Assembly: GCA_903855945.1 (NCBI GenBank)
Contig: CAIOAK010000020.1
Coordinates: forward strand, 1 to 60,501
DNA length: 60,501 bases
Source: an uncultured Anaeromyxobacter sp.
GTDB taxonomy: Bacteria > Myxococcota > Myxococcia > Myxococcales > Anaeromyxobacteraceae
Direction: 5' to 3'
The notes beneath the pieces were generated by a model. The model did not search any database, was not told the origin of the DNA, and saw nothing but the letters and a program-made list of their open reading frames with translations. Positions 37,567 through 42,860 of the stretch are shown here, one piece after another. The stretch's first letter is position 1; the number at the start of each line of letters is the position of its first letter. Made by a program: the position numbers and the translations under genes.

Positions 37567-41332
<3,766 letters not shown>

Positions 41333-41336
41333 GGAC

Positions 41337-41352
41337 CGGTCGGCGCCGACCG
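41337..41352. terminator. Stem-loop between thiC and the rhodanese gene
   Basis: The 16-base palindrome forms CGGTCG-GCGC-CGACCG in the 21 bases between two convergent genes. No T-run follows, so termination is only inferred from position. Confidence 0.4.
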
Positions 41353-41353
41353 A

Positions 41354-41749
41354 TCAGGGCTTCGACGGTCCCGTCTCGACCGGTTTGCCGGCCTTGACCC
41401 AGCCGAAGATCCCCTCCGACATCACCCACACGTCGGTGTATCCGAGCTTGGCCGCCTCACGGGCGGCCGAGTGGCTCGCGGTTCAACGTGTGTTGGAGCA
41501 ATAGAAGACGAGGCGCGCCCCCTTCTCGGCCGGAAGCGTCGCCGTCCATCCCTTCCCCTCGAGGTGGCGCGCGCCGGGCACGTGGTTCTTCCGGAACAGG
41601 TCCGCATCGTTCACGTCGTAGACGATGGCCGTCTTCGCGGCGACCCACCCCTGTACCTGGTCGAGGGTGGCCTCCTGGTACGGGTCGGTGGCGAGGGCGG
41701 CGGAGGGGAGAGCCAGGGCGAGCAGCAGGGTGAGTTTCGAGAGCATCAT
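41354..41749 (-). CDS. Exported rhodanese-like protein, predicted selenoprotein (131 aa, Sec at 89)
   Basis: The frame starts MMLSKLTLLLALALPSAALA, a signal peptide with ALA cleavage, and continues as a rhodanese fold (QVQGWVAAKTAIVYDVNDAD, HVPGARHLEGKG, RLVFYC). Cys84 is the usual rhodanese nucleophile (CSNTR). The next codon is TGA (41485-41483). Reading through it gives TASHSAAREAAKLGYTD and then VMSEGIFGWVKAGKPVE, the complete C-terminal part of the fold, ending at a real TGA at 41356. The TGA is the sixth residue of the active-site loop (C-x4-U), where homologues, as I recall, have Cys. A bSECIS-like stem-loop follows (listed). GGAGG is five bases before ATG 41749. Downstream of moaA by 46 bases. 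Alternatives: disrupted gene or sequencing error. Confidence 0.7.
41444..41485 (-). promoter_or_regulatory. Candidate bacterial SECIS element in the rhodanese mRNA
   Basis: Fourteen bases after the in-frame TGA (41485-41483) a perfect 7-bp stem begins: GGCCGCC (41468-41462), loop CGTGA (41461-41457), GGCGGCC (41456-41450). An outer GAGC (41477-41474) pairs with GCTC (41447-41444). The apical loop lies about 21 bases after the TGA, has a G at loop position 2 and 5 loop bases. These meet the usual bSECIS criteria (stem close behind UGA, apical loop with G in the first two positions). The stem also codes for amino acids, as in other bacterial SECIS. Confidence 0.65.
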
Positions 41750-41795
41750 TGCAACCTCCACTCCGGCCGGGCCGGGCTTCGCCTTACGTAACGGG

Positions 41796-42779
41796 TCAGC
41801 CGCCGATGTGCACCATCGAGTCGAAGGAGTCCTCCTCCATGCGGTGACGGTCGGCCTTGCGGGAGAGCCCGAGGCGGATGGCATCCTCCACCTCCTCGTC
41901 CGTCCCGGTTCCGAGGAGCGGGGCCAGCGAAACCTCGTCCCGCCCGCCCAGGCACGCTCGGAGCGCACCCGCCGCGCTCACGCGCACCCGGTTGCAATCG
42001 CCGCAGAAGTTCTCGGTGATGGCGCCGATGAAGCCGAGGAGCCCCCGGACCTCCGCGCCGCCCTCGAACGACACGCCACGCATGTGGCGCGCGGGGCCCC
42101 AGCCGCGGGTCTCGTCCGGTTCGAGCCGTACCCCCTGCTCGCCGAGGAGGCGCGCCATCTCGGCCACCGAGACCGGATCGCCACCCCCGAAGGGCATGAG
42201 CTCGATGTACCGGGCGATGGCGCCATGGCTCCAGGCGAAGCGGGCGAGGTCGCCAAGTTCCCCGTCATTGACGCCGCGAAGAACCACCGTGTTGACCTTG
42301 AGGGAGGGGAATCCAGCCTTGGCCGCGGCCGCGATGCCACTCCGGATGCGCTCCACGTCGGCGCCCCGACCGGCGATCTGCGCGAGCCGGCCTTCGTCGA
42401 AGGTGTCCAGGGAGACGTTGAGGCGCAAGAGCCCGGCGCGCCGGAGGGGCAACGCGAGCTCCTCGAGTCGGTGGCCGTTGGTGGTGAGGGCGACCTCCTC
42501 GATCCCCGGCGTGGCGTGTATGTCGGACACCACGTCCACGAGGTCCCGACGCAGGGTGGGCTCTCCGCCGGTGAGGCGCACGCGCCGGATCCCCATCCGG
42601 GCGAAGATCCGGACGAGGCGGGCCACGGCGGGGCGGTCGAGGGCGTCGCCCTGGCTGGCGGCGAGGCCGGGGCTGCAGTAGCTGCAGCTGAAGTTGCAAC
42701 GGTCGGTGAGGGAGAGGCGGAGGTAGACGATCCGGCGCCCCTGGGGGTCCACGAGGTGGCTCGAAGACGGACGCGTCAT
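41796..42779 (-). CDS. moaA: GTP 3',8-cyclase MoaA (327 aa)
   Basis: This radical SAM enzyme starts molybdenum cofactor synthesis. The N-terminal cluster is Cys28, Cys32 and Cys35 (RCNFSCSYC). RLTGGEPTLRRDL, LTTNGHRLEEL and NVSLDTFDEGRL belong to the core. The C-terminal second cluster FCGDCNRVRVSAAGALRACLG holds C-x2-C-x13-C, and the protein ends in the double Gly needed by MoaA. ATG 42779 has GAAGG upstream; an in-frame ATG at 42800 is the alternative. Other moa genes are not adjacent; the rhodanese follows 46 bases downstream. Confidence 0.96.
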   Translation of the reverse strand: MTRPSSSHLVDPQGRRIVYLRLSLTDRCNFSCSYCSPGLAASQGDALDRPAVARLVRIFARMGIRRVRLTGGEPTLRRDLVDVVSDIHATPGIEEVALTTNGHRLEELALPLRRAGLLRLNVSLDTFDEGRLAQIAGRGADVERIRSGIAAAAKAGFPSLKVNTVVLRGVNDGELGDLARFAWSHGAIARYIELMPFGGGDPVSVAEMARLLGEQGVRLEPDETRGWGPARHMRGVSFEGGAEVRGLLGFIGAITENFCGDCNRVRVSAAGALRACLGGRDEVSLAPLLGTGTDEEVEDAIRLGLSRKADRHRMEEDSFDSMVHIGG

Positions 42780-42824
42780 GCAAGTGCCTTCATAGCCCAT
42801 GCCTGGGTAGATTCGAAAGGCGCG

Positions 42825-42853
42825 TTGAACCCCGTGAGGTTAGCGGATAGATA
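42825..42853 (+). promoter_or_regulatory. Promoter of the lipA-E1-E2 operon
   Basis: TTGAAC (42825-42830), a 17-base spacer and TAGATA (42848-42853) form a strong match. The -10 ends seven bases before the lipA GTG, so the transcript should begin at or within one base of the start codon. Confidence 0.6.
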
Positions 42854-42860
42854 GCCAAAG

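Follow-up and report, generated by a model that had tools for sequence, protein, structure and literature searches.

Introduction

Single-domain rhodaneses such as GlpE, YgaP and BH2092 possess a catalytic cysteine in their active-site loop, and the loop cysteine of proteins of this type carries a persulfide. To our knowledge, none of the three contains selenocysteine (Sec), and canonical rhodaneses generally have an arginine at the +5 place.

Rhodanese selenoproteins as such are already known. A 2026 catalogue lists five forms, with the motifs UxxS, UxxG, CxU, UxxG and, in the case of TsoB, UxxxxU (PMC13188914). Form 1 is a rhodanese-like selenoprotein of Geobacter (WP_010941598.1) with the motif UxxS (Zhang and Gladyshev 2005, as given in PMC13188914). 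A CxxxxU layout is absent from the forms catalogued in that text, the literature that we searched gave no rhodanese entry under 'CxxxxU' or 'CxxxxC', and the 2006 selenoproteome of A. dehalogenans gives 11 selenoproteins with no rhodanese among them (PMC1794560).

The window analysed here is a stretch of 60,501 nucleotides from an uncultured Anaeromyxobacter sp. (contig CAIOAK010000020.1). We propose that its minus-strand gene 41749-41354 very probably encodes a selenoprotein whose rhodanese loop contains the pair Cys84-x4-Sec89 (probability about 0.93), because a conserved TGA/Cys column, a covarying hairpin and the presence of the sel machinery all point to this reading.

Results

The locus and its product

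The frame opens with the ATG at 41749, is interrupted by a TGA at 41485-41483 and ends with a TGA stop at 41356-41354 (Table 1). A sequence-only reading of the window had described rhodanese sequence on both sides of the internal TGA and a proper terminal stop, and both are as it described them; it had also foreseen that a standard annotation would lose the C-terminal third of the protein, and a gene caller taking TGA as a stop would indeed end it at residue 88. The internal TGA lies five codons 3' of the Cys84 codon, in an active-site loop that reads C84-S-N-T-R-TGA89. The read-through product passes the curated cut-off of PF00581 (47.6 bits vs 22.2), and its AlphaFold model (pLDDT 91.6) has the alpha/beta rhodanese fold, a fold in common with GlpE, YgaP and BH2092; Foldseek on this model gave 6mxv (7.8e-9) and 1gmx (1.4e-6), the nearest solved chains being 6mxv, 3tp9, 3nhv and GlpE. 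The N-terminus, read by eye, presents a lysine, a hydrophobic run and ALA ahead of the predicted cleavage, and the N-termini of the relatives are signal-peptide-like or lipobox-like, which suggests that the rhodanese would be exported to the periplasm. The arrangement of moaA and the rhodanese gene is also present in the nearest relative (G001), and ThiC homologues adjoin the rhodanese gene in G005 and G006; both neighbours are kept in close relatives only.

Table 1. Coordinates of the rhodanese gene, its elements and its neighbours in the window
Feature	Position	Strand	Basis or remark
Predicted rhodanese selenoprotein gene, 131 aa with Sec89	41354..41749	minus	PF00581 match, full-length homologues, AlphaFold rhodanese fold
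In-frame TGA, predicted Sec89	41483..41485	minus	TGA in 37, TGC/TGT in 30 aligned genes
Catalytic Cys84 (TGC), opens the active-site loop	41498..41500	minus	invariant column in alignment A1
Probable Sec-type signal peptide, MMLSKLTLLLALALPSAALA followed by T, residues 1-20/21	41687..41749	minus	read from sequence
Apical bSECIS-type hairpin; 41468-41462 pairs with 41456-41450, loop 41461-41457	41450..41468	minus	folding and family alignment
Outer 5-bp stem CGAGC/GCUCG: 41478-41474 with 41447-41443	41443..41478	minus	not conserved in relatives
moaA, 46 nt upstream of the rhodanese gene	41796..42800	minus	gene name read from sequence
thiC, convergent neighbour, inside ORF 39392-41332; start approximate	39952..41332	plus	neighbour listing

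Comparison with the catalogued forms

Form 1 and the window protein are both PF00581 proteins with one Sec, and the U-T-A-S of the latter fits UxxS; form 1 could be of the same family, the comparison being one of motif descriptions only, in which its Sec could be either the catalytic or the +5 residue. The best NCBIfam match is TsoB (NF045694, rhodanese/DsbD fusion-like), with 43.6 bits over residues 48-129 against a model cut-off of 805, a score that leaves the window protein outside that family. The two proteins share the spacing of their two reactive residues, but TsoB has two Sec and a DsbD-like fusion, whereas the window protein, with its 131 residues, has just one rhodanese domain and one Sec, and the first of its two reactive residues is Cys. 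Form 3 (NF041203, rhodanese_LYCAU) is likewise a small rhodanese-related (seleno)protein; its Sec follows the Cys by two residues (CxU), in contrast to five in the window protein (CxxxxU), which at 35.1 bits stays below the cut-off (115) and falls outside this family too. Forms 2 and 4 (UxxG) also have a rhodanese domain with Sec, but their motif makes it probable that Sec stands in place of the catalytic Cys, which the window protein keeps.

A residue 89 that is either Cys or TGA

The read-through protein was searched against 146 related genomes, and the matches were extracted and aligned. Close relatives were found, many of them with one internal TGA, and 35 of the 146 genomes carry the TGA version. 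The sequence-only reading had expected a cysteine at residue 89 in homologues. Among 67 aligned CxxxxC/U proteins from Myxococcota, counting that of the window, 37 have TGA at codon 89 and 30 have TGC/TGT, so that the column is Cys or TGA throughout, and Cys84 is invariant in the aligned relatives (56 rows of alignment A1). Left out of this set were L081 and L093, two ordinary rhodaneses that alone show Arg at the position of residue 89, as well as L096 and L097 (Cys at 89) and L102, which were weak or misaligned matches. Beyond this set, the genome_contigs scan gave two relatives only, both with Cys, and the plasmid search gave distant relatives only (the best with 48% identity over 69% of the query).

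When the Sec/Cys label is placed on the maximum-likelihood tree, it changes 8 times, and at least 6 of the changes are forced by well-supported branches. Recurrent exchange between Sec and Cys is typical for selenoproteins and unexpected for dead genes.

Both versions are found together in some genomes: L066 and L083 (G069), L067 and L088 (G090), L074 and L086 (G103), and L069 and L092 (G142). These natural Cys versions offer a direct comparison of what selenium contributes to the rhodanese loop.

In the Sec relatives of family f7 (and f2), a Cys stands three residues after Sec and is followed by His, giving C-x4-U-x2-C-H. This U-x-A-C-H segment (in L035, L039, L043, L045-L047, L049, L051, L052, L060 and L063) is reminiscent of a CxxCH haem motif whose first place is taken by Sec; its location is the rhodanese loop/helix.

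A bSECIS-type hairpin that tracks Sec

After the internal TGA, the 7-bp stem with a 5-nt loop (CGUGA) and a G at loop position 2 (41460), announced by the sequence-only reading, was found again; together with the outer stem it folds at -22.2 kcal/mol (z -2.3). The outer stem has 5 bp instead of the 4 bp first given. In synonymous recodings of the window gene alone, P was 0.07 for the 7-bp stem and 0.007 for the folding energy. The window hairpin by itself is only suggestive and, because hairpins form easily in GC-rich coding sequence, the case for a SECIS element rests on the family.

We used our own criterion rather than bSECISearch: a stem of 6 bp or more, a G at loop position 1 or 2 and a register set by the TGA. 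The hairpin, 15-33 nt downstream of the TGA (16-37 nt in the search by this criterion), is found in every one of the 37 TGA genes, where synonymous recoding with the family codon usage would yield 12.8; in the Cys genes it is found in 8 of 30, against 3.9 expected. RNAalifold gave -10.0 for the Sec set vs -0.2 for the Cys set. The stem variants covary (GGCCGCC/GGCGGCC, GCTGCC/GGCAGC, CGCCGCC/GGCGGCG): in 32 Sec sequences, 97.8% of the stem cells pair and 10 cells are changed on both sides, a value reached in none of 500 shuffles; pairing falls to 24-59% when the partner strand is shifted by 1-3 columns. The conserved G stands at the aligned loop position in 34 of the 37 TGA genes, the loop being shorter in the three most diverged. 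The stem that had been called bSECIS-like on inspection of a single gene is therefore one that covaries among relatives and tracks Sec.

The Rfam scan of the rhodanese gene gave no credible match; a mir-150 match below the gathering score was taken as chance.

Selenium machinery in the genomes

All four genes selA, selB, selC and selD, whose presence had been raised as a check on the reading, are found in the same genome: SelA (486 bits joined), SelB (298 bits), SelD (381 bits, with a GUACK motif) and a tRNA-Sec with a UCA anticodon (78.5 bits). A second match that passes the tRNA-Sec cut-off, C108 with 50.7 bits, proved to be a tRNA-Ser. SelB exceeds its cut-off in 31 of 31 TGA-bearing genomes that are at least 85% complete vs 10 of 18 Cys-only genomes (Fisher p 1e-4), and the only three TGA-bearing genomes without SelB are incomplete (66, 61 and 82%).

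The selD gene (L026:1501-2427; G000:C194:45568-46494) has its own in-frame TGA, in GUACK; its product is a selenocysteine-containing selenophosphate synthetase of a known type.

Discussion

The model we propose combines the decoding of the internal UGA with the chemistry of the loop in which it lies. SelB and Sec-tRNA-Sec would read this UGA as selenocysteine via the apical hairpin, and translation would stop at the terminal UGA. The loop Cys84-Ser-Asn-Thr-Arg-Sec89 would then most likely act as a thiol/selenol pair in the periplasm: Cys84 would take up sulfane sulfur as a persulfide, or an oxidised thiol, and Sec89 would attack the Cys84 persulfide or disulfide, thereby releasing the product and forming a Cys-Sec bond. 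An exported thiol reductant would then reduce this bond, and the DsbD-type membrane proteins encoded in the same genome are a possible source of reductant. A working pair of Cys84 and residue 89 is proposed because the second chalcogen is kept, as Cys or as Sec, in every aligned relative.

The myxobacteria would thereby gain a well-supported and widespread selenoprotein. We see even chances that these proteins, which occur widely across Myxococcota, constitute a subfamily of exported rhodanese selenoproteins not yet catalogued, with the layout C-x4-U (in one family C-x4-U-x2-C). Its members would keep the catalytic Cys and would have Sec, at the sixth loop position, as its partner in a dedicated Cys-Sec resolving pair subject to repeated Sec/Cys exchange.

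As to what the pair would do, sulfur transfer receives about half of our confidence. A little under an even chance goes to a selenoprotein with a thiol/selenol redox role, such as disulfide or peroxide reduction, in place of sulfane-sulfur transfer; a redox function is assumed for most selenoproteins (PMC9312934, PMC13188914) and the f7 loop extends to the classic redox spacing C-x4-U-x2-C, yet the domain is a rhodanese with an invariant Cys84 and the standard rhodanese fold, not a thioredoxin fold. It is improbable that selenium, as a loop perselenide, is what the protein binds or delivers instead of sulfur. With selenite and glutathione, rhodanese can give a selenium-substituted (perselenide) form (Ogasawara 2001, cited in PMC5877670), and the genomes do use selenium; however, Cys-only versions are present in genomes without selB, and the neighbourhoods examined contain no link to sel genes. 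These neighbourhoods share no operon beyond the genus and no substrate-indicating neighbour beyond close relatives. In each of the four f7 genomes examined (L136, L140, L141, L142), the Sec rhodanese gene has an OPT-family transporter gene as its neighbour; the f4 neighbours are VWA-domain or kinase genes, and thiC is the neighbour in the Anaeromyxobacter-like family.

Two further explanations would dispense with selenocysteine. That the TGA terminates a functional product of 88 residues, the hairpin having arisen by chance from GC-rich Ala-Ala-Arg codons or serving another role, is very improbable: high GC favours hairpins, and about one third of synonymous recodings reach a stem length of 6 bp or more, but the residues after the TGA are conserved (A96, A99, G103, G113 and W117 are invariant), the hairpin covaries and the Cys orthologues are full length. 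Next to negligible is the view that the gene is dead, its TGA having arisen by nonsense mutation from a Cys (TGC/TGT) or Arg (CGA) codon, or that the TGA is a read error as the sequence-only reading had considered, since, even if a single base separates TGA from these codons and the genome is a 213-contig draft, the same TGA recurs in 36 further genes from 34 further, independent genomes, some of them finished single contigs, with intact flanks and no other shared stop.

The predicted selenoprotein gene is followed, directly after its stop and ahead of the convergent thiC, by a GC-rich palindrome (CGGTCGGCGCCGACCG, 41334-41353). It has no T run, and a scan for a canonical terminator found none. 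On the plus strand, a 409-codon open frame (41625-42854) runs antisense to moaA and the rhodanese gene and is most likely a GC-rich shadow frame.
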